Below, in pieces: positions 7,477-21,177 of a stretch of 34,729 bases of DNA; the stretch's first letter is position 1; each line of letters begins with the position of its first letter. Made by a program: the position numbers and the translations under genes. The notes under the pieces were generated by a model, which saw only the letters and a program-made list of their open reading frames with translations, was not told the DNA's origin and did no database searches. The stretch is taken from NCBI RefSeq assembly GCF_002786325.1, contig NZ_PGTB01000031.1, positions 1 through 34,729 on the forward strand, read 5' to 3'. Source of the stretch: Pseudooceanicola lipolyticus (GTDB lineage Bacteria; Pseudomonadota; Alphaproteobacteria; Rhodobacterales; Rhodobacteraceae).

Positions 7477-7620
7477 ATGCCAGATCACCGGTCCCGCTTT
7501 GGGCACGGGTGTGTCCTGTGTCTGCTTGGCGGTTATGCGCCCGGCGCCGTGCCTTCCCAATGCCGGCCAGCACGCCTGATCTGCCGGCGCGCATTTCCCA
7601 GACCCTGGAGACCTGTATGA
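7477..7620 (+). CDS. Possible 47-residue leader ORF
   Basis: The ATG follows an excellent ribosome-binding site (GGGAGGA with a 6-base spacer). The frame runs 47 codons, MPDHRSRFGHGCVLCLLGGY and on, and its TGA overlaps the next gene's ATG as ATGA, an arrangement used for translational coupling. The product is rich in Arg, Pro and Cys, has no recognisable domain, and its codon use (AGA, CCA, CTT) is unlike neighbouring genes. It may be a translated leader that controls the dehydrogenase gene, or chance. Confidence 0.35.
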   Translation: MPDHRSRFGHGCVLCLLGGYAPGAVPSQCRPARLICRRAFPRPWRPV

Positions 7621-8903
7621 CCCAAAGCATCCCGTTCGAGATGAACAACCTGGAAATGTCCGACAAGGCCAAGCCGCTGCTGGCTGCGGTGATCCGGCAT
7701 ATCGAAGAGAATGTCGCGCCGATCACCGAGGAGTTTTATCGGCTGGGCGAAGGTCGCACCAATCGCTGGTCCTATGCGCCCGGACAGCTGGAATTGCTGG
7801 ATGGCGCCAAGAAAAAGGCAAAAGAATCAGGGCTTTGGAACTTCTTCCTGCCCAATGCCGAAACCGGCGAAGGCCTGTCGAACCTGGATTATGCCTATAT
7901 CGCCGCCGAGCTGGGCAAAAGCCCGCTGGCGCCCGAGACGCTGAACTGTTCGGCGCCCGATACTGGCAATATGGAGGTGCTGGAACGGATCGGCACGCCG
8001 GCGCAAAAAGAGCGCTGGCTCAAACCCTTGCTGGCCGGCGAAATCCGCTCGGCCTTTGCGATGTCGGAACCCGATGTGGCCTCGTCGGATGCGCGTAACA
8101 TCTCGACCCGCGCGGTGCTGGAAAACGGCGAATGGGTCATCAACGGCGAAAAATTCTATATCTCGGGTGCTGGAGATCCGCGCTGTAAGATCATGATCGT
8201 GATGGTAAAAACCTCGCCCGAGGCCGAAACCTTCCGCCAGCAGAGCCAGATCCTGGTGCCGATCGACACGCCCGGTGTCGAAATTGTCGGGCCGATGCAT
8301 GTCTTCGGCCATGATGACGCGCCGCATGGCCATATGCATATCCGGTTCAAGGATGTGCGCGTGCCCGAAGACCACATCCTGTGGGGCGAAGGCCGCGGCT
8401 TCGAGATCAGCCAGCTGCGGCTGGGCCCCGGCCGCATCCATCACTGCATGCGCTCGATCGGCGCCGCGGAAAAGGCGCTGGACCTGATGATCGCTCGCGG
8501 CGTCAGCCGCGAGGCCTTTGGCAAGCGCATCGTCGATCTGGGCAAGAACATGGAAACCATCAGCCGCGCCCGCATCGAGATCGAGGCGATGCGGCTGATG
8601 GTGCTGAAGGCGGCCAAGGCGATGGATACGCTGGGCAACAAGGAGGCGCGCATCTGGGTCAGCATGATCAAGGCGATGGTGCCGGAAAAGGTGTGCCAGA
8701 TCATCGACCAGGCGATGCAGGTGCATGGCGCGGCCGGCCTGTCGCAATGGACCCCCCTCTCCGGCATGTATACCGCGCAGCGGACATTGCGCTTTGCCGA
8801 TGGTCCGGACGAGGTGCATCACCACGTGGTCGCCCGTGCCGAGTTGCAGGACTACCAGAATTCGAACCGCCGCCAGGCCGCGGTGCGCGGATCGGGCACG
8901 TGA
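7617..8903 (+). CDS. ACAD10/11-type acyl-CoA dehydrogenase
   Basis: 428 residues from the ATG at 7617 (GGAGA 6 bases upstream); upstream in-frame codons to 7509 lack a good site. It is an FAD-dependent acyl-CoA dehydrogenase most like the dehydrogenase part of human ACAD11: MSEPDVASSDARN (149-161), SGAGDPRCKI (183-192), GEGRGFEISQLRLGPGRIHHCM (257-278) and DGPDEVH (395-401), where an Asp stands at the place of the usual catalytic Glu. ACAD10/11 proteins and the bacterial LvaC act on 4-hydroxyacyl-CoAs after phosphorylation by an APH-type kinase; such a kinase is encoded at 19488-20513. It heads an operon with two SDR genes, overlapping a GTG of the next frame by 4 bases. Confidence 0.88.
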   Translation: MTQSIPFEMNNLEMSDKAKPLLAAVIRHIEENVAPITEEFYRLGEGRTNRWSYAPGQLELLDGAKKKAKESGLWNFFLPNAETGEGLSNLDYAYIAAELGKSPLAPETLNCSAPDTGNMEVLERIGTPAQKERWLKPLLAGEIRSAFAMSEPDVASSDARNISTRAVLENGEWVINGEKFYISGAGDPRCKIMIVMVKTSPEAETFRQQSQILVPIDTPGVEIVGPMHVFGHDDAPHGHMHIRFKDVRVPEDHILWGEGRGFEISQLRLGPGRIHHCMRSIGAAEKALDLMIARGVSREAFGKRIVDLGKNMETISRARIEIEAMRLMVLKAAKAMDTLGNKEARIWVSMIKAMVPEKVCQIIDQAMQVHGAAGLSQWTPLSGMYTAQRTLRFADGPDEVHHHVVARAELQDYQNSNRRQAAVRGSGT

Positions 8904-8908
8904 TCGCG

Positions 8909-9682
8909 ATGGACCGGCTGTTCGACCTGACCGGCCGGGTGGCGCTGCTGACCGGGGCGTCGCGCGGCATGGGCCTGGCGATGGCCACCGGGCTGGCGCA
9001 GCATGGTGCGACGGTGGTGATCTCGGCCCGCAAGCAGGACCAGCTGGACGCGGCGGCCGAGCAGATCAACGCCACCGTCGGCGCCCGCCGCGCCCATGGC
9101 ATCGCCTGCAATGCCGGCTACAAGGACCAGCTGGCCGCGCTGGTTGGGGCCACGCGACAGACCGCGGGCAAGATCGACATCCTGATCGGCAATGCCGGGG
9201 TGAACCCCTATTACGGCAAGACCTCGGAAATTCCCGACGATGCCTATGAAAAGACGATGCAGGTCAACGTGCAGGCAAACCTGTGGCTGGCGCAGCTGGT
9301 CGCGCCGGATATGCTGCAGCAAGGCCGTGGATCGATGATGTTCACCTCCTCCATCGGCGCCTTCAAACCCTCGGACATGCTGGGCACTTATGGCATGTCC
9401 AAGCTGGCGCTGATCGGGCTGGTGCGCAACCTGGCGGCCGAGTTCGGGCCCGGTGGCATCCGCTGCAACGCCATCTGTCCGGGCTTGGTTAAAACCGAGT
9501 TCGCGCGTGAATTGTGGGACAAGCCCGAGGTCGAACAGCGGATCCGCAACCAGATCCCGCTGCGCCGCCTGGGCGAAGCCGAGGATTTCGCCGGCATCGC
9601 AGTGTTCCTGGCCTCGGATGCCAGCCGCTATATGACCGGCCAGGCGCTGACCGTCTGTGGCGGATCGAACATGTGGAGCTGA
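8909..9682 (+). CDS. Short-chain dehydrogenase/reductase
   Basis: 257 residues from ATG 8909; a GTG at 8900 overlapping the previous stop (GTGA) would add three residues and is a real alternative. Classical SDR: TGASRGMG nucleotide-binding turn (15-22), IGNAG (93-97), the Ser pair at 147-148 and the catalytic YGMSK (Tyr161, Lys165). The C-terminal VFLASDASRYMTGQALTVCGG is typical of FabG-like 3-oxoacyl or hydroxyacyl dehydrogenases. The coupling to the ACAD10/11-type enzyme suggests oxidation of the hydroxyacyl-CoA it releases, which is inference; the substrate cannot be read from sequence. Confidence 0.9.
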   Translation: MDRLFDLTGRVALLTGASRGMGLAMATGLAQHGATVVISARKQDQLDAAAEQINATVGARRAHGIACNAGYKDQLAALVGATRQTAGKIDILIGNAGVNPYYGKTSEIPDDAYEKTMQVNVQANLWLAQLVAPDMLQQGRGSMMFTSSIGAFKPSDMLGTYGMSKLALIGLVRNLAAEFGPGGIRCNAICPGLVKTEFARELWDKPEVEQRIRNQIPLRRLGEAEDFAGIAVFLASDASRYMTGQALTVCGGSNMWS

Positions 9683-9692
9683 GGAGGTTCGG

Positions 9693-10463
9693 ATGGAACT
9701 GAAGGACAAGATCATCGTCGTCACCGGCGCCGCCAGCGGCATCGGCAAGGCGATGGCTGCCCGGTTTGCCGCCGAGGGCGCGAAACAAGTGATCTGCGCC
9801 GATCTCAACCTCAAGGACGCCGAGAAAACTGCGCGTGAGGTCAAGGGGATCGCGGCCGAGGTGGATGTATCCCGCGAGGACCAGATCGCCGGGCTGATCG
9901 ACTGGGTCGAGCGCGAGGTCGGGCCGATCGACCTGTTCTGTTCCAATGCCGGGATCCTCACCCTGGGCGGCACCGAGGTGGCCAATGCCGACTGGCAACG
10001 GATCTGGGAGGTCAACGTGATGTCGCATGTCTGGGCCGCGCGCCACCTGGTCCCGCGGATGGCGGCCCGCGGTGGCGGCTATCTGCTGAACACTGCCTCG
10101 GCCGCCGGGCTGCTGAACCAGGTCGGCTCGGCCCCCTATGGCGTGACCAAACACGCCGCGGTGGGCCTGGCCGAATGGCTGGCGCTGAGCCATGGCGACG
10201 AGGGCATCAAGGTTTCGGTTCTGTGCCCGCAAGCGGTGCGCAGCGAGATGACGCGCGGCCACGAGGATGGCGTGGCCGCGATCGACGGGATGCTGGAGCC
10301 CGAGGTGGTGGCTGACGCCTGCGTTGCGGCGATTCGGGCCGAGACCTTCCTGGTGCTGCCGCATCCCGAGGTGCGGAGCTATATGCGCAACAAGGCCGAG
10401 GATTACGACCGTTGGATCGGCGGAATGCGCAAGCTGAACCGCGCCTATGGCGGACCGCGCTAG
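9693..10463 (+). CDS. Short-chain dehydrogenase/reductase
   Basis: 256 residues; ATG 9693 follows GAGGAGG by 5 bases and lies 10 bases after the previous SDR stop, so it is in the same operon. SDR marks: TGAASGIG (11-18), CSNAG (83-87), Ser136 in NTASAAG and YGVTK (Tyr149, Lys153). Unlike its neighbour it has a longer C-terminal region (PEVRSYMRNKAEDYDRWIGGM) of the type seen in SDRs with a substrate-covering tail, instead of the Gly-rich FabG ending. The two adjacent SDRs therefore probably carry out different steps. Substrate unknown. Confidence 0.9.
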   Translation: MELKDKIIVVTGAASGIGKAMAARFAAEGAKQVICADLNLKDAEKTAREVKGIAAEVDVSREDQIAGLIDWVEREVGPIDLFCSNAGILTLGGTEVANADWQRIWEVNVMSHVWAARHLVPRMAARGGGYLLNTASAAGLLNQVGSAPYGVTKHAAVGLAEWLALSHGDEGIKVSVLCPQAVRSEMTRGHEDGVAAIDGMLEPEVVADACVAAIRAETFLVLPHPEVRSYMRNKAEDYDRWIGGMRKLNRAYGGPR

Positions 10464-10464
10464 A

Positions 10465-10482
10465 AGGGGGGCGCGCTCCCCT
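10465..10482. terminator. Short hairpin between convergent SDR and tesB genes
   Basis: AGGGGGG-CGCG-CTCCCCT forms a 7-pair stem with one G-T wobble in the 24-base gap between two converging stops. It lacks a T-run, so termination strength is uncertain. Confidence 0.35.
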
Positions 10483-10487
10483 GCCCT

Positions 10488-11378
10488 CTACCGCGCCTCC
10501 GGCTTGCGATAGCGGCGCACCAGCCCTTCCTGCGCGACGCTGGCCACCAGGCTGCCGTCCTCTGCATAGATGGTGCCGCGGTTGAAGCCGCGCCCGTGCC
10601 CGGTGAACGGGCTGTCCATCGCGTAAAGATGCCAGTTCTCGAACTGGATCGGCCCGTGAAACCACATGGCGTGGTCCAGGCTGGCGGTCACCACGCCGCC
10701 GCGGAACCAGCTGATCCCGTGCGGGCGCAGGGCCGAACCCAGCAGGTTCATGTCCGAGGCATAGGCCAGCAGGCAATGCTGCATCGGGGCGCCCTGCCCC
10801 TGTGCCGCCGGCATCCGGAACCACATCTGGTTCACGTCGTCCAGCGGCTTGGGATTGAACAGGTCCTGTGGCTTGACCTCGCGCACCTCGATCGGCCGAG
10901 GCCGCAGGAAGTCGGCGCGCAGGTGGTCGTCCACGGTGTCGGCCTGCGCCGCGCGCCGTTCCGCGCGACTGGCCAGGCCTTCGGGCCCGGCCACCTTGGG
11001 TGCGCTATGCTGGTGGTGCCAGCCGTCCTCGTCGGAATGGAACGAGGCCGACAGGTTCAGGATCTGCTTGCCGTGCTGGATCGCCACCACCCGGCGGGTG
11101 GTGAAACTGCCGCCATCGCGGGCGCGGTCGACGCTGTAGATCACCGGGATCGACGGGTCGCCGGGGCGGATGAAATAGGCATGCAGCGAGTGGCACAGCC
11201 GGTCCGGCACCGTCCGATAGGCCGCCATCAGCGCCTGGGCGATGACATGGCCGCCAAAGATCCGCTTGGTTGTCTCGCCGCCCAGCCCGGTGCCGCGGAA
11301 CAGGTCGACTTCGAGCGTTTCGATGTTCAGAAGATCAAGGAGTTCTTTTGCCGGATCAACCACTTGTGGGCCTTTCAT
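10488..11378 (-). CDS. tesB: Acyl-CoA thioesterase II
   Basis: 296 residues with the double-hotdog fold of TesB: an N-terminal hotdog (LFRGTGLGGETTKRIFGGHVIAQALMAAY) and a C-terminal one (YASDMNLLGSALRPHG, SLDHAMWFHGPIQFENWHLY, RGTIYAEDGSLVASVAQEG). The Asp, Thr/Ser and Gln of the known active site lie in these three segments. It hydrolyses acyl-CoA to free acid and CoA and probably relieves CoA trapping during degradation of an unusual acid. The ribosome-binding site is weak. The gene lies 78 bases downstream of a 25-codon ORF and the serine hydrolase, all on the minus strand, and may be co-transcribed with them. Confidence 0.93.
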   Translation of the reverse strand: MKGPQVVDPAKELLDLLNIETLEVDLFRGTGLGGETTKRIFGGHVIAQALMAAYRTVPDRLCHSLHAYFIRPGDPSIPVIYSVDRARDGGSFTTRRVVAIQHGKQILNLSASFHSDEDGWHHQHSAPKVAGPEGLASRAERRAAQADTVDDHLRADFLRPRPIEVREVKPQDLFNPKPLDDVNQMWFRMPAAQGQGAPMQHCLLAYASDMNLLGSALRPHGISWFRGGVVTASLDHAMWFHGPIQFENWHLYAMDSPFTGHGRGFNRGTIYAEDGSLVASVAQEGLVRRYRKPEAR

Positions 11379-11455
11379 TTGCCACTACGCGCATTCCGGA
11401 ACAGACCTGATCGGCGTCAATCCTGGCAGAGGTCGTCAGGGTGCCGCGGGTGGTC

Positions 11456-11533
11456 CTATTCCGGATCGTCCTCCCATAGCAGCATCTGCACCGGCACGGC
11501 CAGCGCCCGGCGCGTCTGGCCGGCGCCGGTCAT
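11456..11533 (-). CDS. Possible 25-residue ORF after the serine hydrolase
   Basis: The ATG overlaps the hydrolase TGA as ATGA and the frame ends at TAG 11456-11458. The peptide starts MTGAGQTRRALAVPVQM and ends in an acidic WEDDPE. No homology is recognised. The overlap is the kind used for coupling, but the length makes chance quite possible. Confidence 0.22.
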   Translation of the reverse strand: MTGAGQTRRALAVPVQMLLWEDDPE

Positions 11534-12771
11534 TCCACCAGCGCGCCGTGCACCAGCGCCTTCAACTCGGAGCGGCAGGGATACGAGCTGGAGGGGGACA
11601 GCTGGGTCAGGAACACCACGCTGAGGTCGAGAACCGGGTCGATCCAGAAAAACGTCGATGCCATGCCGCCCCAGCTGAAATCGCCGACGCTGCCGGGAAC
11701 ATGCACCCGGCCCGGATCCAACACCACCGACCCGCCAAGGCCAAAGCCGGTGCCCACCATCGGCTGTTCGGCAAAGCTTTGCGGTCCCATCGAGGCGATA
11801 TCGCCGGGCAGATGGTTGCGCATCATGAACTCGACGGTTTTCGGGCTGAGCAGGCGTTCGCCGCGGAACGCGCCCTTGCGGCGCAGCATCTCGGCAAAGC
11901 GCATATAGTCGTCCAGCGTGCCCACCAGGCCGCCGCCGCCGGAATACAGCGTGGCCTGCTCAAAGGGCGAACTGCCGGCCTTGTCCACCAACCGCAGCGT
12001 GTCGTCACCACCCTTGGCCGCGTTCAGCGCCATCGCGTCGCCGGCCAGCGGCGTATAGAGCGAGGCAAAACGGTCGCCGGTGCCCTCGGGCACCCGGAAA
12101 GCGGTGTCGCGGATGCCCAGCGGGTCGAAGATCTGCGATTGGAAGAACTGTGCCAGGCTTTGCCCGGCGACGATTTCAACCACCCGTCCCAGGATGTCGA
12201 TCGAAACGGAATATTCCCAGCGCGTGCCGGGCTGGAACGCCAGCGGCAGCGCCGCGACCTGTCCGACCAAGGACTCAAGCTGCCCCTGATCGGGGCGGAA
12301 CAGCAGATCGGCGTCATCCATCGCCGCCGGCAGCACGCCGGGGTTGAACGGATAGCTGAGGCCACTGGTATGGGTCAGCAACTGGTGCAGCGTCGGTGCC
12401 GGTGCCGGTTCGGTCTGGTCGATGCGCACCGCCTTGGGGATCAGCGCCTGCATGTCGTTGAAGGCGGGGATGAAATCCGAGACCGGCGCGTCCAGGTGGA
12501 ACAGGCCCAGCTCGGCCAGCATCATGACCGCAACCGAGGTGACCGGCTTGGTCATCGAGTACAGCCGCACGATGGTGTCGCGCTGGAACGGCAGCCCCTG
12601 CTCGACACTGCGCAGACCGGTCGAATTGAAGAAGATCTCGGCCCCGTCGCGCGCGATCAGGATCGAGGAACCGGCAAATTTGCGTTCGCTGACATAGCGA
12701 TCCATCCAGCCGGCAATCCGCTCCAGCCGGGCGGGATCGACGCCCTTGCTGCTGGGTTCGGCGGTTCTCAT
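11530..12771 (-). CDS. Serine hydrolase of the class C beta-lactamase / esterase family
   Basis: 413 residues from ATG 12771, behind GGGGAGGA; an upstream in-frame extension to 13032 has no domain and no good start. The beta-lactamase fold is shown by the S-x-x-K motif SMTK (Ser72, Lys75), the Tyr motif in TRWEYSVS, and a C-terminal FSWGGMASTFFWIDP strand at the KTG-equivalent. Members of this group (EstB, CubicO-like) are mostly esterases acting on short esters or lactones rather than beta-lactams. No signal peptide is visible, so it is probably cytoplasmic. It lies upstream of tesB on the same strand, consistent with a role in ester or lactone opening, which is inference. Confidence 0.88.
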   Translation of the reverse strand: MRTAEPSSKGVDPARLERIAGWMDRYVSERKFAGSSILIARDGAEIFFNSTGLRSVEQGLPFQRDTIVRLYSMTKPVTSVAVMMLAELGLFHLDAPVSDFIPAFNDMQALIPKAVRIDQTEPAPAPTLHQLLTHTSGLSYPFNPGVLPAAMDDADLLFRPDQGQLESLVGQVAALPLAFQPGTRWEYSVSIDILGRVVEIVAGQSLAQFFQSQIFDPLGIRDTAFRVPEGTGDRFASLYTPLAGDAMALNAAKGGDDTLRLVDKAGSSPFEQATLYSGGGGLVGTLDDYMRFAEMLRRKGAFRGERLLSPKTVEFMMRNHLPGDIASMGPQSFAEQPMVGTGFGLGGSVVLDPGRVHVPGSVGDFSWGGMASTFFWIDPVLDLSVVFLTQLSPSSSYPCRSELKALVHGALVE

Positions 12772-13264
12772 GTTCCGTCTTCCTCCCCGCTGTGTCAGCC
12801 CGGATCGCCGCTCGGTTCCCGGGTTAGACCGACTCGTCTTGTGGCCCTCTCCCTTGGCCACAAGACCGCGATTCCCTCCGGATGTCGAGCCATCCGCATC
12901 ATGGGATTTGCTGCGGATTTTCCACTGCGCGCGGGGCAACGTCAGGGGCCGCCTCATGGCGCGGCCTGTGTTTGCTTTCCACCATGCGACAGCGCAAGGC
13001 GGCGCTGCCGGCCAGATCTGGCCGGATCGCAATCGTCACGGTTCATCTACTTGTCCCCCAAATGCATTTCGCCGCCGGTGCCCGCATGCACTCCCAAGCC
13101 GGTCTGCGCCGGCGCTTGTCGGAGTGGTGGGCGTCGGGCGACGTCCCGTTGTTATTGACTGTGTTAAAAGCCTAAAGCTAGGTACGCGAGAGTGTTCCCA
13201 CGCCGCGATGCGCGTGTCAAACTTGCTGTGCCGCCGCCGGGAAAAAGACAATCAGGGGGAGAAC
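12772..13264. other. 493-base gap with three inverted repeats
   Basis: No convincing gene on either strand. It holds a perfect 11-base inverted repeat, GTCTTGTGGCC (12836-12846) with GGCCACAAGAC (12856-12866); a 7-base repeat ATCCGCA (12892-12898) with TGCGGAT (12912-12918); and a perfect 18-base palindrome CCGGCCAGATCTGGCCGG (13008-13025). The first lies 65-95 bases before the hydrolase start. None is followed by a T-run. They may be operators for the divergent hydrolase and GST genes or remnants of a mobile element. Confidence 0.5.
13155..13184 (+). promoter_or_regulatory. Candidate promoter of the GST gene
   Basis: TTGACT, an 18-base spacer and TAGGTA in a locally AT-rich stretch, about 80 bases before the start codon. 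The -35 is good and the -10 moderate. Confidence 0.4.
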
Positions 13265-13870
13265 ATGAAGCTTTATTTTGCGCCCAGAAGCCGGGCGGTG
13301 CGGATCGCCTGGCTGCTGGAAGAGCTGGGGCTGGATTACGAGCTGGAGCGGTTCAGCCTGGGTGACAGGACGATGCGCGAACCCGGCTATCTGGGGGTGC
13401 ACCCGATCGGCCGGGTGCCGGCGCTGGAGGATGGCGATGTCACCATCTTCGAATCCGGTGCCATCGTCGAATACCTGCTGGCCCGGCACGGCAAGGGCCG
13501 TCTGCGCCCGGCGGTCGACTCGGCCGATTTCCCCGCTTACCTGCAATGGCTGCATTACTCCGAGGGCATGATCATGCCGCAGGTGAATGTGATCATGGTT
13601 GAAACCGTGTTCCTGCCGCCCGAGCGCCGCAACGAGACCAATGTAAAGCGCGCGACCAAGCTGTTGAATCAAATGCTGTTGGCGGTGAACGCGCATATGG
13701 CCGGGCGCGACTACCTGGCGGGTGACTTTTCCGGCGCCGATATCATGACCGGCCACGCGGTGATCGGCGCCGAGGGCATGGGCATCGATTTTGCCGACAA
13801 GCCGAACCTGGTGCCCTATGCCGAACGGCTGAGGGCGCGCCCGGCGTTGCAAAAGGCGCTTGCGCTTTAA
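13265..13870 (+). CDS. Glutathione S-transferase family protein
   Basis: 201 residues from ATG 13265, preceded by AGGGGGAG; the longer in-frame reading to 12746 crosses the regulatory gap and is rejected. The N-terminal thioredoxin-like domain has MKLYFAPRSRAVRIAWLLEEL with a Ser/Arg at the usual glutathione-activating position, the cis-Pro loop IGRVPALEDGD and the glutathione-binding FESGAIVEYLL (about residues 64-74). The C-terminal all-helical domain ends with the N-capping-box-like FSGADIMTGHAVI. Many bacterial GSTs serve detoxification or catabolic isomerisation; nothing here fixes the substrate. It is a single gene, convergent with the liv operon. Confidence 0.9.
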   Translation: MKLYFAPRSRAVRIAWLLEELGLDYELERFSLGDRTMREPGYLGVHPIGRVPALEDGDVTIFESGAIVEYLLARHGKGRLRPAVDSADFPAYLQWLHYSEGMIMPQVNVIMVETVFLPPERRNETNVKRATKLLNQMLLAVNAHMAGRDYLAGDFSGADIMTGHAVIGAEGMGIDFADKPNLVPYAERLRARPALQKALAL

Positions 13871-13883
13871 GGGGGCTTTTTGG

Positions 13884-13954
13884 GGCACAGGTCCCGGATC
13901 ACGTCCGGGACTGCGGTGCCGTGAAGCTTCGCCGCCCCGGCCGCGGCGCCGGGG
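13884..13954. terminator. Two strong hairpins between GST and livF
   Basis: Hairpin 1: GTCCCGGA-TCACG-TCCGGGAC (13891-13911), extended by an outer GGCAC/GTGCC stem (13884-13888 with 13916-13920). Hairpin 2: CCCCGGC (13935-13941) with GCCGGGG (13948-13954). They occupy the gap between converging genes. On the plus strand a CTTTTTGG tract comes before, not after, the stems. Probable 3'-end structures; termination mechanism unclear. Confidence 0.5.
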
Positions 13955-13982
13955 TCTGCCGCCCTCGCCGACAGTCCGGCCG

Positions 13983-14684
13983 CTACACTTCCAGCCATTC
14001 CTTGCGCACGTCTTCGCGCTGTTTCAGCTCTTGCGGCGTGCCTTCGAACACCACCTGGCCATGGCCCATGACATAGACCCGGTGGGCGATATCCAGCGCG
14101 ATCGACAGTTTCTGTTCAACCAGCAACGTGGCAATGCCGCGCCGGGCGATTTCCTGCAGCAGGGACGCCACCCGCTGCACCATCTGAGGGCTGAGTCCCT
14201 CGGTCGGTTCGTCGATCATCACCAGGTCCGGGTCGCCCATCAGGGTGCGGCACATGGTCAGCATCTGCTGTTCCCCGCCGGACAGCACCGAGGCCTCGAC
14301 ATCGGCACGTTCGCGCAGGTTTTCGAACAGGTCGAACATGTCGGCCATCGACCAGCGCCCCTGCCCGTCCTTCTGGCCCGGTTTCAGCCCCAGGATCAAA
14401 TTCTGCCGGGTGGTCAGGCCGGGAAAGATATCGCGGTTCTCGGGCACATACCCGATGCCCAGCTTGGCGATCTCGAAGGCCTTGCGCCCGGCGATTTCGG
14501 CGCCCTTGAAGACCACCGATCCCACTGGCGGGACCTCGCCCATCACCGCTTTGCACGTGGTCGAACGCCCCACCCCGTTGCGACCGAGAAGTGCAACGAT
14601 TTCACCCTCTTCTATGGAGATATTCACCCCCTGCAGGATGTGCGATTTGCCGTAGTAGGCGTGCAGGTCGCGGACTTGCAGCAT
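13983..14684 (-). CDS. livF: LIV-type ABC transporter ATP-binding protein LivF, Walker A Lys replaced by Arg
   Basis: 233 residues, normal LivF length. It is one of two nucleotide-binding subunits of the importer. The signature LSGGEQQ, the Walker B LVMIDEPTEGL and the LLVEQ switch region are intact. The P-loop, however, reads GRNGVGRST: the invariant Lys is Arg40. The codon is CGT, three base changes away from AAG and two or more from any Lys codon, so this is not a single read error. The partner LivG keeps its Lys. The gene is last in the operon; its ATG overlaps the livG stop (TGATG). Activity of this site is uncertain; an asymmetric transporter with one working site is possible. Confidence 0.93.
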   Translation of the reverse strand: MLQVRDLHAYYGKSHILQGVNISIEEGEIVALLGRNGVGRSTTCKAVMGEVPPVGSVVFKGAEIAGRKAFEIAKLGIGYVPENRDIFPGLTTRQNLILGLKPGQKDGQGRWSMADMFDLFENLRERADVEASVLSGGEQQMLTMCRTLMGDPDLVMIDEPTEGLSPQMVQRVASLLQEIARRGIATLLVEQKLSIALDIAHRVYVMGHGQVVFEGTPQELKQREDVRKEWLEV

Positions 14685-15442
14685 CAGTGTTCCGCCTCCA
14701 GCGCGGCGCCCAGATAGGCCTCTTGCACCCTGGGATTGGCGCGCACCTGTTCGGGTGAGCCGGTGGCGATGATCTCGCCATAGACCAGCACCGAGATGCG
14801 GTCGGCCAGGTCGAAGACCACCCCCATGTCATGTTCCACCATGACCAGCGTCTTGTCCTCGGTCACGGTGCGGATCAGGTCGACGATATAGTCGGTTTCC
14901 GAATGGCTCATCCCCGCGGTGGGTTCGTCCAGCATGATCACGTCGGCGCCGCCGGCTATGGTGATGCCAATTTCCAGCGCCCGTTGCTCGGCATAGGACA
15001 GCACCCCGGCAGGCAGCTCGGCGCGTGCGGTCAGGTTGATCTGGTCGAGGATCCGGTGGGTGCCTTCGGTCAACGCACGCGAGCGGCTGACCAGGTTCCA
15101 GAAGGAATAGCGGTAGCCCTGCGCCCAGAGCAGCGAACAGCGCACGTTCTCGAACACGCTCATCCTGGGGAAGATATTGGTGATCTGGAACGACCGGCTA
15201 AGCCCCATCCGGTTGATCTGGAACGGCGCCAGCCCGGTCACGTCATGGCCGTGCAGCCGCACCTTGCCGCTGGTCGGTGGAAACCGTCCGGTGATCAGGT
15301 TGAACAGGGTGGATTTGCCCGCGCCGTTCGGCCCGATGATCGCGTGGCGTTCGCCGCGCGGGATCTCCAGGTTCACCCCGCGGATGATCTCGGTCTTGCC
15401 GAAACTCTTGCGCAGGCCATCCAGGTGCAGCGCGCTGCTCAT
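14684..15442 (-). CDS. livG: LIV-type ABC transporter ATP-binding protein LivG
   Basis: 252 residues, typical for LivG. Walker A is intact, GPNGAGKST with Lys43; Walker B is VIMLDEPTAGM. The signature region reads LSYAEQR, the variant normal for LivG. The LivG-specific insertion around VTGLAPFQINRMGLSRSFQ is present. With LivF it powers uptake through LivH-LivM. The start overlaps the livM stop by 4 bases (ATGA), so translation is coupled. No oddity apart from the contrast with LivF. Confidence 0.95.
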   Translation of the reverse strand: MSSALHLDGLRKSFGKTEIIRGVNLEIPRGERHAIIGPNGAGKSTLFNLITGRFPPTSGKVRLHGHDVTGLAPFQINRMGLSRSFQITNIFPRMSVFENVRCSLLWAQGYRYSFWNLVSRSRALTEGTHRILDQINLTARAELPAGVLSYAEQRALEIGITIAGGADVIMLDEPTAGMSHSETDYIVDLIRTVTEDKTLVMVEHDMGVVFDLADRISVLVYGEIIATGSPEQVRANPRVQEAYLGAALEAEH

Positions 15443-16731
15443 GCCCGGCCTCCTTCCGGCGTGTTGGCGTCATGCCAGGCCGCAGTCAGTTCCGGCACGC
15501 TTCGGCGCGCCAGCAGAAAACCACCCAGCAGCATCGCCAGCCCGGCGATCCAGGGCCCCAGGCTGTGGCTGTTCAAATCAGTCCAGAACAGCCGGACGGT
15601 GGTGTCGCCCGCCACCGCGTGGCGGGTGTGAAAGGTCAGTTCCAGCAGGATGATCGCGCCGAGAATGGCGATCACGGCCGGTATCAGGGTTTTGGCATAG
15701 GGCACCACCAGGCGGCCCAGCTTGCCCAGCCTGATCGCCGGCACATGCATCATCAGCACCCCGGCCAGCCCGCCGGGGAAGAACATCACCGTCGCCACGA
15801 ACATCGCGCCGAGATAGAGCTGCCACAGCTCGGTCTGCAGGCTCATCACCGTCTGCAACATGGTGAAGACCAGCGCGCCCAGGATCGGCCCGAAGAAAAA
15901 GCCGACGCCGCCCAGGAAGGTGACCAGCAGGATCACGCCCGATTGCGCCAGGTTCAGGTTGCCCTCGGTCAGGATCTCGTAATTGATCGCGAACAGCCCG
16001 CCGGCGACACCGGCAAAGAACCCGGCAATGCAGAACGAGAAGTATCGCACCCAACGTGCTGAATAACCAAGAAATTCCGCCCGTTCCGGGTTGTCGCGCA
16101 CGGCATTGGCCATGCGGCCGACCGGGGTGCGCGAGAACAGGTACATCAACAGCGCCGACAGCACCGTCCAGAAGGCCAGCACGTAATAGACCTCGACCTG
16201 GCGCAGGAATTCGATGCCGAAGACCGGCAGGCCATAGGTGCGGTCGCCGCTGATGCCTTCCTCGCCACCGAAGAACACCACGATGATCACCGAACAGGCG
16301 GCGATCAGCTCTCCGATGCCCAGCGAGATCATCGCAAACACCGTGCCGGCCTTGCGGGTCGAGAACGAGCCGATGATGGTGGCCAGCCCCAGCCCGAATA
16401 GGCCGCCGAAGACCGGCAACAGCGGCAAAGGCAGCGGCAATTCCCGGGTTTCGACCATGTTCATGATATGCATGCAGAAAAAGCCGCCGACGCCCATATA
16501 AACCGCGTGGCCAAAGCTGAGCATGCCGCCCTGCCCCAGCAGCATGTTGTAGGACAGCGCGAAGACGATGGTGATCATCATCTGGTTCATGATGGTGATC
16601 GCGCTGTTCGAGTCGAAGATGAACGGCATCAGGCCGAGAAAGGCGATGCCCAGCAGCCAGGGCAATACCGCCTGGAGCGTCAGCCGCGGCGCGCGGGTCA
16701 CGGCGGCGGTTTTGTGGATCGCGTCGGTCAT
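15439..16731 (-). CDS. livM: LIV-type ABC transporter permease LivM with C-terminal membrane extension
   Basis: 430 residues, about 90 more than a plain LivM. The core has the transmembrane LivM fold with NMLLGQGGMLSFGHAVYMGVGG, the cytoplasmic coupling segment RMANAVRDNPERAEFLGY (the EAA-like loop touching the ATPases), and the GGVGFFFGPILGA motif. After a VPAIRLGKLGRLVVPYAKT linker near residue 335 come two extra hydrophobic segments (AVIAILGAIILLELTF and GPWIAGLAMLLGGFLL) separated by a periplasm-like loop. The start overlaps the livH stop as ATGA. Function of the extension unknown. Confidence 0.93.
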   Translation of the reverse strand: MTDAIHKTAAVTRAPRLTLQAVLPWLLGIAFLGLMPFIFDSNSAITIMNQMMITIVFALSYNMLLGQGGMLSFGHAVYMGVGGFFCMHIMNMVETRELPLPLPLLPVFGGLFGLGLATIIGSFSTRKAGTVFAMISLGIGELIAACSVIIVVFFGGEEGISGDRTYGLPVFGIEFLRQVEVYYVLAFWTVLSALLMYLFSRTPVGRMANAVRDNPERAEFLGYSARWVRYFSFCIAGFFAGVAGGLFAINYEILTEGNLNLAQSGVILLVTFLGGVGFFFGPILGALVFTMLQTVMSLQTELWQLYLGAMFVATVMFFPGGLAGVLMMHVPAIRLGKLGRLVVPYAKTLIPAVIAILGAIILLELTFHTRHAVAGDTTVRLFWTDLNSHSLGPWIAGLAMLLGGFLLARRSVPELTAAWHDANTPEGGRA

Positions 16732-17684
16732 ACGTCCCGCTTTCCGAACAGGCCGTAGGGCCGGAACACCAGGATCAGCACCATCAGCAGATACGGCAGG
16801 ATCGGCCCGATCTGCGGCAGAGTCAGGGTCCAGAGATCGGCCAGATAGCTGTCGCTGAGGTCGACGGGCCGTTCCAGGCCCAGCGCGCCCAGCAGCGTGG
16901 CGAATTCGAAATTGTAGGAGGCGGCAAAGGTGGTCAGCCAGCCGATCAGCAGCGACGCCACCAGCGCCCCCCAGAGCGAGCCCAGCCCGCCGATCACGAT
17001 GGTGACAAAGACGATCGAGCCCAGCAGATAGGCCATGCCCGGAAAGGTGCCCAGCACCGGCCCGGCGATCACCCCGGCCACCCCGGCCAGCGCGGTGCCC
17101 ACCCCGAACACGCCCATGAACACCAGCGGCACGTTATGGCCCAGCGCCTCGACCGTGCGGGGATAGCTGAGCGCCGCCTGGATGATCATCCCGACGCGGG
17201 TGCGGGTCAGCACATAGAGCAGCGACAGGAAGATCCCCATGGAAATGAAGATCATGAACACCTTATAGGCCGGAACCGCGTTGCCGCCGATCGAGAACAG
17301 GGTGAAGGTCAGTAGCTCGGGTTCGTTATAGGGCACGATGTTCTTGCCCCAGAAGAACTGCACGATCTCTTCGATCAGCAGCGCCAGCCCGAAGGTAAAG
17401 ATCAGTTCGGGCACATGGCCGTATTGATGCACGCGGCGCAGCCCATAGCGTTCGACCAGCGCGCCCAGCACGCCGACCAGCGGCGGCGCCAGGATCAGGC
17501 CGGGCCAGAAGCCGACATATCGGCTGATCTGATAGGCGAAATACGCCCCCAGCATGTAGAAACTGGCATGGGCAAAGTTCAGCACGCCCATCATCGAGAA
17601 GATCAGGGTAAGCCCGCTGGACAGCAGGAACAGCAACAGCCCCGTCACCAGCCCGTCCAGCAGGTTGATTGCAATCAGGTCCAT
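16728..17684 (-). CDS. livH: LIV-type ABC transporter permease LivH
   Basis: 318 residues with about eight hydrophobic segments. The N-terminal LLSSGLTLIFSMMGVLNFAHASFYMLGAY is the LivH hallmark, followed by LIEEIVQFFWG, the coupling loop with TRVGMIIQAALSYPRTVEALGHN, and VIGGLGSLWGALVASLLIG. It forms the membrane channel with LivM. AAGGTGG precedes the ATG. The gap of 79 bases to livK holds a strong hairpin. Substrate cannot be told from the permease; the whole system may carry a carboxylate rather than an amino acid, given its neighbours. Confidence 0.94.
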   Translation of the reverse strand: MDLIAINLLDGLVTGLLLFLLSSGLTLIFSMMGVLNFAHASFYMLGAYFAYQISRYVGFWPGLILAPPLVGVLGALVERYGLRRVHQYGHVPELIFTFGLALLIEEIVQFFWGKNIVPYNEPELLTFTLFSIGGNAVPAYKVFMIFISMGIFLSLLYVLTRTRVGMIIQAALSYPRTVEALGHNVPLVFMGVFGVGTALAGVAGVIAGPVLGTFPGMAYLLGSIVFVTIVIGGLGSLWGALVASLLIGWLTTFAASYNFEFATLLGALGLERPVDLSDSYLADLWTLTLPQIGPILPYLLMVLILVFRPYGLFGKRDV

Positions 17685-17724
17685 CGGCCACCTTTCCGCA
17701 GCGGAGGGTCAGAGATGCGAGGGT

Positions 17725-17752
17725 CCGGCCCGCCGCGATATGGGCGGGCCGG
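17725..17752 (-). other. Intercistronic hairpin between livK and livH
   Basis: CCGGCCCGCC (17725-17734) pairs perfectly with GGCGGGCCGG (17743-17752). It lies just after the livK stop and before livH. Such stems after a binding-protein gene commonly protect the upstream message or partly terminate transcription, giving more binding protein than permease; that role here is inference. Confidence 0.6.
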
Positions 17753-17763
17753 GGGCAAGGCCC

Positions 17764-19014
17764 TCAGGGACGTTTCATCTCGCAGGTGGTGGCGCTGTCC
17801 TGCCCGGCCATGGCGACCGTCGACTCGACCTTGGTGCCAAAGCCCGACCCGTCGAAGTCAAAATCGATGCCTTCGTTGGTATGCACCTGCACATGCATGT
17901 CCTGGATCAGCTGGTGGTCCTGTGGCCGCATCATCAGCTTGGAGCCCCAGATGCTGTCATATTCCATGCCCTCCAGCGCCTTGGCGATGGCAACGACATC
18001 GTCGGTGGTGCCGGCCTGTTCGATAGCAGCTGACAACATGCCGATGACGTTAAAGATCCGGGTCTGGTCGACATTGCCGTCCGGATACCGCGCCTTGAAG
18101 GCATTGTAATATTCCGAAGCATCATCATTGGGGGGCGGGTTGACCTGCCCTTCCGAAACCAGCCGGATCACATCCTTGCCGGAATCGCCAAACGCCGCGG
18201 TGATGCCGCTGCCGGCGGCATAATAGGTATAGATCGGCCCGGAATAGCCATTGGCAACCAACGACTTGCCCAGCCCCAGCATATCGGCCCCCCAATTGCC
18301 GGTGATCACCGCATCGGCTTCGGAGGCCACGATCTTGCGGGCATAGGGGGTGAAATCCTTGACCTTGCCGATCGGGTGCAACTCGTCGCCGACAATCTCG
18401 ATATCGGGGCGTTTTTCGGCCAGCATCTTGTTGGCGGCGGCGGCAACCGCCTTGCCGAAGGAATAGTCCTGGCCGATGATATAGACCTTTTTCAGGTCGT
18501 CGGCCTGGGCGATCACATCGGTCAGCACGTCCATCTTGATATCGGCATTGGCGTCAAAGCGGAAATGCCAGAAATTGCAGTCTTCGTTGGTCAGCGCCGG
18601 ATCCACCGCCGAGTAGTTCAGGAACAGCACCCGGCTGTCCGGATTGCGGCGATTGTGCTTGTCGATGGCGTCGGTCAGGGCATGGGCCACGCTGGACCCG
18701 TTGCCCTGGGCGATAAACCGATAGCCCTGGTCGATGGCGACCTGCAGCTGGATCAGCGATTCCTGCGGGCTGGCCTTGTTGTCGAAGCCTTCCACCACGA
18801 TCTTGGAGCCGTCGACGATTCCCCCCTTGTCGTTGACCAGCCAGTCAGCCGCGAACTTGTACTGGTTCAACCCGTTCGACCCGGTCGAGGCAAAGGGCCC
18901 GGACAGCGGATCAATGAAGGCGATCTTCACATCCGCGGCCCAAGCCGCGGCCGCCCCGACCGATACGGATAGGGCAAGCGCGGCGCGAACGCCGAACCTT
19001 CTGAAGTTTGACAT
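17764..19014 (-). CDS. livK: LIV-type ABC transporter periplasmic substrate-binding protein
   Basis: 416 residues from ATG 19014, behind GGGAGGAAA; the upstream in-frame extension is rejected because the signal peptide starts here (MSNFRRFGVRAALALSVSVG with a cleavage site after AWA). The mature protein has the Peripla_BP_6 fold: VKIAFIDPLSGPFASTGSNG, VDGSKIVVEGFDNKASP, then YIIGQDYSFG and the second lobe with DAVITGNWGADMLGLGKSL. One Cys pair (NEDCNFWHF and TTCEMKRP) might form a disulfide. It delivers substrate to LivHM. Closest relatives are annotated as branched-chain amino-acid binders, but this group also binds aromatic and other carboxylates. Confidence 0.9.
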   Translation of the reverse strand: MSNFRRFGVRAALALSVSVGAAAAWAADVKIAFIDPLSGPFASTGSNGLNQYKFAADWLVNDKGGIVDGSKIVVEGFDNKASPQESLIQLQVAIDQGYRFIAQGNGSSVAHALTDAIDKHNRRNPDSRVLFLNYSAVDPALTNEDCNFWHFRFDANADIKMDVLTDVIAQADDLKKVYIIGQDYSFGKAVAAAANKMLAEKRPDIEIVGDELHPIGKVKDFTPYARKIVASEADAVITGNWGADMLGLGKSLVANGYSGPIYTYYAAGSGITAAFGDSGKDVIRLVSEGQVNPPPNDDASEYYNAFKARYPDGNVDQTRIFNVIGMLSAAIEQAGTTDDVVAIAKALEGMEYDSIWGSKLMMRPQDHQLIQDMHVQVHTNEGIDFDFDGSGFGTKVESTVAMAGQDSATTCEMKRP

Positions 19015-19487
19015 CTGATTTCCTCCCAAACGATAGCCCGCTTTGTCTTGTGCAAATTTTTTGCGGGCTTGCTCAAAAGCCTTGCACATCGGGATTCAAA
19101 GTCAAGCTTCACGCGAACACAATTCAAGGTTGATTAAATTGAAGCGGAACACCAGCCGACCATTGCCAAAGCGCTTGCTGTTCAATGTGCAAACCGGCAG
19201 GGAGATTTTGGTGCTGATATATGAATATTAGTTATTATAATTAGATGACTAAGGGGTCTAATTAATTTTATTTTCAAGGAAATCCGGGCGGCGGTGACAG
19301 TCCATATTCCCACCCGGTTGAACCGGGATGCGAAACAGTTCGGCGCAATCAGGAGATGTCTCAACTGATCGCCCAAGGTGCAGGTGTCTGCCAGCCACGG
19401 CGCGGCAATCGGCCGGCCGGGGCGCATGCACGGTTTCCGCATTGCAGAAACATGTTCTGCAAATCGCGGTGATTCTCTCCCGGGCGT
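19015..19487. promoter_or_regulatory. 473-base upstream region of the liv operon
   Basis: No gene seen. From livK outward it holds GCAAA-TTT-TTTGC (19052-19064), flanked by TGTGCAA (19049-19055) and TTGCACA (19082-19088); a third TGTGCAA at 19186-19192; an AT-rich island at about 19215-19280 containing TAATTAGA-N11-TCTAATTA (19238-19264) followed on the plus strand by ATTTTATTTT; and TTGCAGAA-N5-TTCTGCAA (19442-19462). On the minus strand a TTGACT at about 19112-19117 could be a -35 for livK. Likely an operator-rich promoter region, plus the 3' end of the kinase operon. Confidence 0.5.
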
Positions 19488-20513
19488 CTACCGGTCCAGC
19501 GCTTCGAGACCGGATTCGGCAAACATCGGCACATAGCGACCGATCTGAAGGGCGCGTTCGGGATTGGAGGCATTGCCGTCCAATGCGCGTTTCAGCACGC
19601 CCTGGATGATCCCGCCCATGCGGAAGAAGCAGAAGGCCAGGTAAAAGCCGAAATTGTCGATTCCCGACAGGCCGCGCCGTTCGCAATAGCGGTTGATAAA
19701 CTCCTCGTCCGACATCAGTCCCAATGCCGCGCGGTCAACGCCCGCCAGCCCGCGCCCCTCGCGCCCTTCGGGCATCTGCCATTGCATGATGACCGAGGCC
19801 AGATCGGCATAGGGATGCCCGGTGGTGGACAATTCCCAGTCCAGCACCGCCAGGCAAGCCGAACCGTCGTGTTCGAAGATCATGTTGTCGATGCGGTAAT
19901 CGCCATGCACCAGCGTGCGCTGGCCATCCTCGGGCGGCATCCGTTTCGGCAATTCGGCAATCAGACGGTCCATCGCCGCAACCGGCTCGGTTTCGGAGGC
20001 GCGGTATTGTTTGGTCCAGCGGGCGATCTGGCGTTCGTAATAATTGCCCTCGGGACCGTAATCTCCCAGCCCGACGGCTTCGACATCAACCATGTGCAAC
20101 TCGGCCAGCACGCGGTTCATCTCGTCGATCACCGCATGGCGGGTGGCGTTGGAAAACCCCTGCATCGACGGCTGGCGAATGTTGCGTCCCTCGACATGGC
20201 TCATCACGTAGAAGGCGGAACCGATCACGCTGTCATCCTCGCAGAGCAGGTACATCTCGGCCACCGGCACCTTGGTCCCGGCCAGCGCCTTTTGGACCCG
20301 GTATTCACGATCCACCGCATGGGCCGATTTCAGCAATACACCGGGCGGCTTGCGGCGCAGCACGTAATTGCGCGCCGGTGTCTTCAACAGGAAAGTGGGG
20401 TTGGACTGGCCGACGTCGAATTTCACCGCCTCGACCGGCCCCTGGAACCCCGGCAGGTGCCGCGACAGGTAGGCGGTCACCGCCTGGGTGTCGAGTGTCT
20501 GGGTATCGGTCAT
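19488..20513 (-). CDS. APH-family phosphotransferase, ACAD11-kinase / LvaA type
   Basis: 341 residues with the aminoglycoside phosphotransferase-like kinase fold. The N-terminus HLPGFQGPVEAVKFDVGQSNPTFLL is the form found in the N-terminal domain of ACAD10/11. The catalytic loop is LVHGDYRIDN (Asp205, Asn210) and the metal-binding motif is VLDWELSTTGHPYADLA (Asp225). Human ACAD10/11 kinase domains and bacterial LvaA phosphorylate the hydroxyl of 4-hydroxyacyl-CoA. By family this is a better guess than antibiotic resistance. It is the last gene of the ACAD-ACAD-SDR-thiolase-phosphatase series on the minus strand, 12-16 bases after the phosphatase-fold gene. Confidence 0.88.
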   Translation of the reverse strand: MTDTQTLDTQAVTAYLSRHLPGFQGPVEAVKFDVGQSNPTFLLKTPARNYVLRRKPPGVLLKSAHAVDREYRVQKALAGTKVPVAEMYLLCEDDSVIGSAFYVMSHVEGRNIRQPSMQGFSNATRHAVIDEMNRVLAELHMVDVEAVGLGDYGPEGNYYERQIARWTKQYRASETEPVAAMDRLIAELPKRMPPEDGQRTLVHGDYRIDNMIFEHDGSACLAVLDWELSTTGHPYADLASVIMQWQMPEGREGRGLAGVDRAALGLMSDEEFINRYCERRGLSGIDNFGFYLAFCFFRMGGIIQGVLKRALDGNASNPERALQIGRYVPMFAESGLEALDR

Positions 20514-20529
20514 CGGTTCCCCCCCTCAG

Positions 20530-21177
20530 CTATAGGTCAGCAACGCTTCGCGCTCGGCGCGAAGAAGATGTGACACGGCATTGAATTCCTGTAGGAAAAA
20601 ATTGCGGACCCGAAAACACGAACCGGGTGATCGAGCTGTTCTTCATCTGCAGGTTCAGCTCCATCATCATCGGCTTGGGCGATGCCAGCGCGCGCGCCAC
20701 CAGTTGGCCGATCACACCGCCGGAACTGATCACCAGCACCCGCCGCGCCTTGGTGTCGGTGGCAAAGCGCCGCGCCTCCTCGACCCGGGCTTCGAAATGC
20801 GCCCAGCTTTCCCGCGCGCCTTCCAGCCCGCCTTGCTGCCAGTCCAGGATGGTGTCGCGCAGGGTGCGGAAATGGGTTCTGCGGTCACGTTTCACCGGCC
20901 CCGGCACCTTGCCGTCAAAGCGCACCGCCAGCAGGTCGTGGAAATCGTATTCGTTGAACCCGGGATGTTCCTCGCGACTGCCGTCCAAGCCCATCGCGGT
21001 CAGCGTGTCCTGCTGTCGGCGCAGGCTGCCGGTGATCAGGCGGTCCGGCACCCAGCCGGCGGCGCGCAGGGTCTCGCCAACCAGGCGGGCCTGTTCATGG
21101 CCCACCTCGGACAGCGCATCGTAATCATCGGCGCCGAATGACGCCTGCCCGTGCCGGATCACCAACAGCTCGGCCAT
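20530..21177 (-). CDS. Histidine phosphatase-fold protein with C-terminal frameshift and missing second His
   Basis: 215 residues as read. The RHG motif is at 8-10 (VIRHGQASF), as in phosphoglycerate mutase-like phosphatases. The second catalytic His, normally in a VSHGG-like motif, is replaced: VISSGGVIG (Ser152). Near the end the frame breaks at a run of six A/T bases (20596-20601). The read product ends PTGIQCRVTSSSRRARSVADL-like, but dropping one base gives FLQEFNAVSHLLRAER and a TYS ending with TGA at 20526-20528, which looks like the true family C-terminus. The core is unaffected. It lies between thiolase (7 bases) and kinase in one operon, suggesting work on the same phosphorylated intermediate; this is inference. 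Confidence 0.82.
   Translation of the reverse strand: MAELLVIRHGQASFGADDYDALSEVGHEQARLVGETLRAAGWVPDRLITGSLRRQQDTLTAMGLDGSREEHPGFNEYDFHDLLAVRFDGKVPGPVKRDRRTHFRTLRDTILDWQQGGLEGARESWAHFEARVEEARRFATDTKARRVLVISSGGVIGQLVARALASPKPMMMELNLQMKNSSITRFVFSGPQFFPTGIQCRVTSSSRRARSVADL

Follow-up and report, generated by a model that had tools for sequence, protein, structure and literature searches.

The 34.7-kb contig of Pseudooceanicola lipolyticus considered here (NZ_PGTB01000031.1; 34,729 nucleotides, all of which we analysed and call the window) carries a gene island that encodes an acyl-CoA dehydrogenase (ACAD) and a kinase which, judged by their sequences, resemble the two enzymatic parts of ACAD11. 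Next to the kinase gene is a gene for a protein with the histidine phosphatase fold (HP), in which a serine takes the place of the second catalytic histidine. We give an even chance to the idea that the island serves to break down a hydroxylated acyl-CoA along the route of ACAD10/11 and the Lva proteins, with the activities on separate genes and with HP as the kinase's partner or brake. The window is a whole contig, and the 5.2-Mb genome is in 439 contigs. The coordinates of the genes are given in Table 1.

A dehydrogenase and a kinase with ACAD11-type sequences

The closest solved structures to the dehydrogenase are ACAD11 (8v3u, E 2.3e-119), 4hr3, and human ACAD11 (2wbi), and in this search of PDB the first ACAD of another type follows at E 1.9e-37. 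By sequence, the dehydrogenase is a member of the ACAD10/11-LvaC clade. In the structure of ACAD11, R626, H634, and R637 are reported to bind the phosphate, and D753 is reported to be the base (PMC12440821). R268, R273, H276, R279, and D395 of the window's protein correspond to R626, R631, H634, R637, and D753 of mouse ACAD11; the HCMR motif and the upstream arginine lie in RLGPGRIHHCMR, and the catalytic aspartate lies in ADGPDEVH. The equivalents of R626, R631, H634, C635, R637, and D753 are kept in all of the 94 distinct ACAD11-type ACADs that we aligned (window included). The window's two other ACADs lack the phosphate residues and the aspartate, save for R631 in one of them. The genome has one ACAD11-type ACAD among 34 ACAD matches, and the next match is at 31% identity.

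The kinase is of the ACAD11/LvaA type by sequence: its closest solved structures are 3dxp (E 3e-109) and then the kinase domain of ACAD11 (E 2.8e-81). Its D205 and N210 correspond to D220 and N225 of ACAD11, and the equivalents of D220, N225, and R176 are kept in 196 of 196 open reading frames (ORFs) for this kinase (191 distinct sequences and 5 repeats, window included). The kinase is the single match of its type in the genome. Some kinase relatives at 70–75% identity sit on Sulfitobacter plasmids (matches H1-H13), which may mean that all or some of the island is mobile.

An initial annotation of this DNA had proposed a split ACAD11-like pair, and this is borne out by the structural matches and the conserved residues. 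The ORFs it described exist and translate as quoted, and the two genes are, as it said, far apart in different operons: they are separated by 10.6 kb and lie on opposite strands, in two operons that face each other. At the left end of the island, on the plus strand, the ACAD is followed by two short-chain dehydrogenases (SDR1 and SDR2). On the minus strand are livFGMHJ and, upstream of them, the kinase operon, which has the order ACADl-ACADs-SDR3-THL-HP-KIN (large and small partners of a two-gene ACAD, a third SDR, thiolase, HP, and kinase) with gaps of 3, 35, 18, 7, and 16 bp. A spacer of 473 bp separates the kinase from livJ.

The kinase and the dehydrogenase occur in the same genomes

The initial annotation's linking of the two genes agrees with their distribution across relatives. 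Among 190 genomes of the class, 64 have both genes, 4 have the kinase only, 3 have the ACAD only, and 119 have neither (p 1e-41). For 198 genomes of the family, the corresponding numbers are 92, 3, 1, and 102 (p 9e-52). These counts include the window's own genome and use cut-offs of E <= 1e-70 (class) or E <= 1e-80 (family) for the kinase and E <= 1e-80 for the ACAD; the p values are from Fisher tests that ignore relatedness.

The genes are also physically linked in part of the family. An ACAD that is at least 80% identical to the window's is present in 13 other genomes of the family (not counting an 81% match in G297 that is partial and contains stops), and in eight of these the kinase is 12–16 kb away on the same contig, in the same opposed arrangement. 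These eight loci have the window's gene order: SDR1 comes after the ACAD, SDR2 is kept, and the glutathione S-transferase (GST) is present in four of the eight. The order of livFGMHJ is conserved in the relatives' islands. Of the remaining five genomes, three carry the kinase on a separate contig, one has a fragmented assembly, and in one the ACAD's neighbour is a different kinase at 43% identity. Shortened forms of the island are found in 13 more loci (L045, L046, L048-L055, and L060-L062). More broadly, of 98 kinase loci from across the phylum, 60 have an ACAD11-type ACAD at most about 5 kb away. We consider the pairing of kinase and ACAD, as read from sequences, to be well supported in this genome and family; it is not universal.

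HP has a serine in place of the second catalytic histidine

The initial annotation had also placed a phosphatase-fold protein beside the kinase, and Pfam (His_Phos_1) agrees. HP has the fold of branch 1 of the histidine phosphatase superfamily, according to this Pfam match and the AlphaFold2 (AF2) fold of the ortholog at locus L043. The nucleophile motif (R8 H9), the second arginine (R54), and the acidic proton donor (E76) are present. In a profile alignment, S152 pairs with the histidine of the HGG motif of the superfamily, and there is no gap at the motif. We compared an alignment of HP to bacterial and archaeal genomes and analysed the best 80 of 574 relatives, to which all counts out of 80 below refer. 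The two arginines, the nucleophile, and the glutamate are invariant in all 80, and the second histidine is replaced by serine in all 80. One of the two search patterns contains SSGG, so the latter result is partly selected. Twelve of the 80 (5 with GSGG, 6 with TSGG, and 1 with SSAG) cannot have come through that pattern, and neither can HPs that were found by starting from the kinase; serine is also found at this site in the 22 HPs that are linked to kinases in the phylum's other classes. By its sequence, then, HP has the superfamily's fold yet is not a standard member in its catalytic residues.

We rejected the idea that the serine marks the kinase-linked HPs only, as weaker HP relatives that lie away from a kinase carry the serine (TSGG) too. 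The genome's own second HP-family protein is one of these (G000:C409:17922-18557, L161; TSGG, no kinase nearby). In three alphaproteobacterial kinase loci (L220, L224, and L232), weaker histidine phosphatase matches that fall under the 100-bit cut keep HGG. The tail of the window's HP (20530-20598, minus strand; about 20 residues after residue 194) is unlike that of 13 aligned relatives, as if it were out of frame, which could be either an assembly error or a real change.

HP adjoins this kinase in three classes of bacteria

HP is a neighbour of this type of kinase, with varying gene order, in Alpha-, Beta-, and Gammaproteobacteria. In 57 of the 80 HP loci, the kinase is on the same strand and no more than 1.5 kb away, and in 20 of 80 an ACAD11-type ACAD is within the flank (up to 6 kb). 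Among these loci, and in aligned coordinates, the order HP-KIN is seen in 37; HP-KIN-ACAD in 10 (Burkholderia, Paraburkholderia, and Caballeronia); HP-ACAD-KIN in five (Shewanella, two Zhongshania, Microbulbifer, and Pseudoteredinibacter); and ACAD-HP-KIN in five, among them Oricola, Defluviimonas, and Vannielia (L124). ACAD-KIN-HP is the order in L066 and in seven loci of other classes of the phylum. Some contigs in the scan stop next to HP (L099 and L129), and some loci are repeated (L056-L059 overlap L036, L039, L040, and L043; L110 has the same kinase as L037).

When the kinase is taken as the starting point, 22 of the 41 non-alphaproteobacterial loci of the phylum have HP no more than 5 kb away. 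The phylum sample has 98 loci counted out of 103 kinase rows (the window, G022, G154, and two partial kinases, G618:C96 and G649, were excluded), and the split between alphaproteobacterial and other loci was assigned by hand from kinship labels. In a set of 36 neighbourhoods that was hand-picked rather than random (35 of the 110 kinase-bearing family genomes plus sampled ones, and G051) and comes almost wholly from the window's family, 26 have HP beside the kinase. In a tree of 191 kinases, HP-linked rows are found in both deep branches, and the HP label changes 14 times, as compared to 63 times in shuffles; at least 10 of the 14 changes are forced by supported branches. The tree was made with FastTree, has some long branches, and contains rows that were partly picked for HP. 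The initial annotation's placement of a phosphatase-fold protein beside the kinase is thus matched in other loci.

In eight loci from one family (L242, L243, and L247-L252; presumably Pseudomonas-like), HP and the kinase are separated by a gene for a protein of roughly 105 residues, with an SDR after. One of these eight small proteins was scanned and matched Pfam SCP2. No ACAD11-type ACAD lies within 5 kb in these loci, where the kinase-HP pair is put to another use. No gene like LvaB was recognised beside the kinases when 137 small same-strand ORFs were clustered without a reference sequence for LvaB; there was one SCP2 family.

A proposed pathway and its alternatives

In the pathway that we propose, the Liv-type importer would bring the substrate in, the kinase would phosphorylate a 4-(gamma-)hydroxyacyl-CoA, and the ACAD11-type ACAD, using bound FAD, would eliminate the phosphate to give a 2-enoyl-CoA. 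The SDRs, the thiolase, and the two-gene ACAD could then take the product through beta-oxidation. HP, as a slow or altered phosphatase, might clear acyl-CoA that is stalled or wrongly phosphorylated and so limit its build-up. Phosphorylation followed by elimination is known for relatives of these enzymes; for the window, it is a prediction, and we infer the role of HP, the substrate, the cargo of the importer, and the pairing of these two proteins. A bulky or branched hydroxyacyl group would fit the likeness of the ACAD pair to Tcur3481/Tcur3483 and of SDR3 to MFE-2. The Tcur3481/Tcur3483 pair is linked to steroid-type substrates, which at most hints at bulky or cyclic acyl groups. As in the kinase and phosphatase pairing of PFKFB or PPIP5K, the most likely role of HP is as a brake on the phospho-acyl-CoA intermediate; the invariant nucleophile, arginines, and glutamate favour a catalysis that is retained but altered over a purely structural role. 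We more tentatively suggest, and think it on balance doubtful, that bacteria have a dedicated Ser-for-His subfamily of histidine phosphatases that controls the ACAD10/11-type kinase or its phospho-acyl-CoA.

Several observations weigh against the proposed pathway. Twelve genomes of other families carry the window's subtype of ACAD, at 71–77% identity, in 13 loci (L262-L274), and within about 5 kb of these loci (about 2 kb on one side only for L263) there is no kinase, HP, or other island gene, save for one weak GST match and one weak SDR match; each of these 12 genomes also has a second ACAD11-type ACAD. This implies a family-specific pairing for this particular kinase and ACAD, and on this point the initial annotation is not supported as it was put. 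In part of the window's own family, the kinase-HP operon (kinase-HP-SDR3-ACAD pair) persists without a window-type ACAD in the island. Co-occurrence is less neat with looser cut-offs for the kinase: at 1e-30 in the class, the counts (both, kinase only, ACAD only, neither) are 67, 5, 0, and 118, and at 1e-60 in the family they are 93, 17, 0, and 88. No protein of the CoA ligase family is among the 16 window proteins that were scanned with Pfam, and we found no biochemical or expression data on the genes of the island. As for HP, it is near the kinase in none of the 57 alphaproteobacterial loci of the phylum sample, or in 2 of 60 if the window and G022 (with HP) and G154 (without) are added. Of the 190 class genomes, 72 have the kinase (E <= 1e-30) and just five have any HP-family protein (E <= 1e-15), three of them beside the kinase, which makes HP an accessory, even as its linkage to the kinase recurs. 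Also, the weaker HP relatives with TSGG that lie away from a kinase (in G000, which is the window's own genome, G022, G154, and G117) mean that the serine is not specific to partnership with the kinase.

One alternative is that the kinase-HP operon and the ACAD11-type ACAD serve different pathways within one island, so that the product of the kinase goes elsewhere. The distance between the genes and their opposite strands, the free-standing ACADs of other families, and the family members with the operon and without this ACAD would all fit. We nevertheless think this unlikely: the genome has no second gene of either type, 8 of 13 genomes share the joint island, co-occurrence is near complete at the strict cut-offs, and every residue of the phosphate site is kept. 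It is more unlikely still that these are ordinary genes of fatty-acid catabolism that happen to adjoin a kinase for another small molecule. Kinases with the APH fold are diverse, and in NCBIfam the window's kinase has weak matches, all far below the cut-offs, to aminoglycoside, thiamine, lanthionine-synthetase, homoserine, and capreomycin kinases; on the other side are its similarity to the kinase domain of ACAD11, the retained equivalents of R176, D220, and N225, and the statistical coupling to ACAD11-type ACADs.

Other alternatives concern HP. It could be a non-catalytic pseudo-phosphatase subunit that restrains the kinase, convergent with the HAD domain of ACAD10, and it might replace LvaB, which binds LvaA. 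The HAD domain of ACAD10 lacks one aspartate of DxD, is reported to have negligible phosphatase activity, and restrains the kinase, whose activity rises upon mutation of the domain (PMC11342911). The serine in HPs of the scan and of other classes points the same way, as does the position of HP beside the kinase whether or not an ACAD is close by. In Pseudomonas citronellolis LA18T, a histidine phosphatase gene is beside the kinase gene, and LvaB is described as missing (PMC6692424). However, the invariant nucleophile, arginines, and glutamate exceed what binding alone appears to need, and the loss of a canonical residue need not abolish activity: PPIP5K, a kinase joined to a domain of the histidine phosphatase superfamily, has Lys990 in the place of the second histidine and is reported to be active (PMC11836120), and activity is likewise reported for a protein that has RHA where others have RHG (PMC3866925). 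Furthermore, most alphaproteobacterial kinases have no HP neighbour, and HPs that lie away from a kinase carry the serine too. We consider a purely regulatory HP to be a minority prospect. A role for HP on the pathway, removing the phosphate from 4-phosphovaleryl-CoA, has been suggested for P. citronellolis in a report that calls for study of the phosphatase (PMC6692424), and the conserved nucleophile and arginines would allow it. But plain hydrolysis would return the 4-hydroxyacyl-CoA and undo the work of the kinase, with ATP spent for nothing. Elimination of the phosphate is already the task of ACAD10/11 and probably of LvaC, and most kinase-bearing genomes of the class do without HP, so this seems improbable. 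For HP, a brake with altered catalysis thus remains our preferred reading.

Other genes of the island

The island lies between rpsB/tsf and pssA/purB (four names that we assigned by eye from translations). In its middle, after SDR2, are a TesB-like thioesterase, a serine hydrolase of the beta-lactamase family, which is possibly an esterase or a lactonase, and the GST. Beyond the kinase operon are a zinc-type dehydrogenase gene (presumably quinone-oxidoreductase-like, judging by eye), HP2, which is a histidine phosphatase of the ordinary kind, and a regulator of the LuxR type.

The neighbours that the initial annotation had listed are nearly all there (importer, thiolase, three SDRs, and ACAD pair). 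The exception is its MaoC-like protein. Pfam scans of 16 window proteins turned up no MaoC-type protein, and we dropped a MaoC hydratase from the island; the hotdog-type gene is the TesB-like acyl-CoA thioesterase, which at 254.8 bits is under the NCBIfam cut-off for acyl-CoA thioesterase II (292.85 bits). The LuxR-type regulator is kept in some relatives (L056, L059, L060, L061, and L079), and quorum control of the island is possible.

Table 1. Genes of the island, with coordinates in the window
Feature	Coordinates	Strand	Basis and remarks
ACAD11/LvaC-type acyl-CoA dehydrogenase, "type A" subtype, candidate for phosphate elimination	7617..8903	+	428 aa; Pfam ACAD domains; PDB ACAD11 E 2.3e-119
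SDR1, short-chain dehydrogenase	8906..9682	+	Pfam adh_short_C2 E 1.2e-61
SDR2, short-chain dehydrogenase	9690..10463	+	Pfam adh_short E 1.7e-42
TesB-like acyl-CoA thioesterase	10488..11378	-	Pfam Acyl_CoA_thio E 7.9e-35
Serine hydrolase, beta-lactamase family	11530..12774	-	Pfam PF00144 E 4.5e-63
Glutathione S-transferase family protein (GST)	13220..13870	+	Pfam GST_N E 1.9e-17
livF-livG-livM-livH-livJ, branched-chain-type ABC importer	13983..19014	-	livFGMH by eye; livJ Pfam Peripla_BP_6
ACAD11/LvaA-type APH-fold kinase	19488..20513	-	341 aa; Pfam APH E 1.9e-51
Histidine-phosphatase-fold protein (HP), Ser for second catalytic His	20530..21177	-	215 aa; Pfam His_Phos_1 E 2.8e-16
Thiolase	21185..22381	-	Pfam Thiolase_N E 6.2e-63; PDB 8gqg E 1.3e-120
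SDR3, like the (3R)-hydroxyacyl-CoA dehydrogenase domain of MFE-2/HSD17B4	22400..23329	-	PDB 2et6 E 1.3e-118, 1zbq E 5.8e-71
ACADs, small partner of two-gene ACAD	23365..24480	-	PDB Tcur3481 (6wy8) E 3.9e-35
ACADl, large partner of two-gene ACAD	24484..25665	-	PDB Tcur3483 (6wy9) E 8.5e-45
Zinc-type dehydrogenase family protein	25797..26792	+	Pfam ADH_zinc_N E 7.2e-25; conserved in island
HP2, histidine phosphatase that retains HGG, unlike HP	26799..27455	-	Pfam His_Phos_1 E 1.3e-44
LuxR-type regulator with autoinducer-binding domain, island edge	28662..29399	+	Pfam Autoind_bind E 1.4e-25

Comparison with known systems

The initial annotation took the pathway to be one not previously laid out, and in this it went too far. 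The chemistry of ACAD10/ACAD11 and of the lva operon is already published (PMC12440821, PMC11342911, PMC6692424), and genes for a kinase, a histidine phosphatase, an LvaC-like ACAD, and an LvaD-like SDR were described as a cluster in P. citronellolis LA18T in 2019 (PMC6692424). That report is the sole one on the combination of kinase, HP, and ACAD that we found in a search of an open-access library. To our knowledge, what is new here is the breadth of the linkage between HP and the kinase, the Ser-for-His trait, the island in the window, and the limits of the linkage.

If a dedicated Ser-for-His subfamily does control the kinase or its product, it would be an independent counterpart, of unrelated fold, to the crippled HAD domain of ACAD10, and a brake on phospho-acyl-CoA would have evolved more than once. 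How the build-up of 4-phosphoacyl-CoA is restrained is an open point for ACAD10, and a kinase-linked bacterial protein in three classes makes the question testable. The subfamily would also be a clear case for functional naming, as the P. citronellolis gene is annotated only as "histidine phosphatase family protein."

In humans, the two activities of ACAD10 and ACAD11 reportedly break down 4-hydroxy fatty acids. Like the window, mammalian ACAD10 and ACAD11 combine a kinase of the same family with an ACAD that has the same phosphate-binding residues and catalytic aspartate, and ACAD10 also resembles the window in that its kinase has a phosphatase-fold partner (a joined domain in ACAD10, a neighbouring gene in the window). 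The parallel to ACAD10 in the initial annotation holds for position. It does not extend to homology, as HP has the histidine phosphatase fold according to both Pfam and the AF2 fold, which rules it out as a homolog of the HAD domain. The systems differ as well in that the window's genes are separate and 10.6 kb apart, and in that the activities of the window's proteins are predicted from sequence.

The lva operon of Pseudomonas putida KT2440, like the window, has separate genes for the kinase (LvaA) and the ACAD (LvaC) and an SDR partner (LvaD). ACAD11 is reported to be homologous to LvaA and LvaC (PMC12440821), and we judged the window's homology to the lva operon by way of ACAD11 rather than from the LvaA and LvaC sequences directly. 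In contrast to the window's scanned proteins, the lva operon includes a CoA ligase (LvaE), and its regulator is of the sigma54 type instead of the LuxR type. LvaB is beside LvaA in the lva operon; with no LvaB sequence to go by, no LvaB was identified in the window's kinase operon, where the gaps are 3–35 bp. The window has a Liv-type importer, a two-gene ACAD, a thiolase, and an MFE-2-type SDR in addition. The levulinate cluster of P. citronellolis LA18T is like the window in its four kinds of genes, but it is described as one compact cluster, in contrast to the window's two facing operons (PMC6692424).

Finally, PFKFB and PPIP5K share with the window the pairing of a kinase with a domain of the histidine phosphatase superfamily, and PPIP5K also lacks the second histidine. 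PFKFB acts as both a kinase and a phosphatase. These proteins differ from the window's pair in that their domains are fused, their kinases are of other kinds, and their substrates are sugar or inositol phosphates; the phosphatase of PPIP5K resembles the branch of phytases and acid phosphatases.

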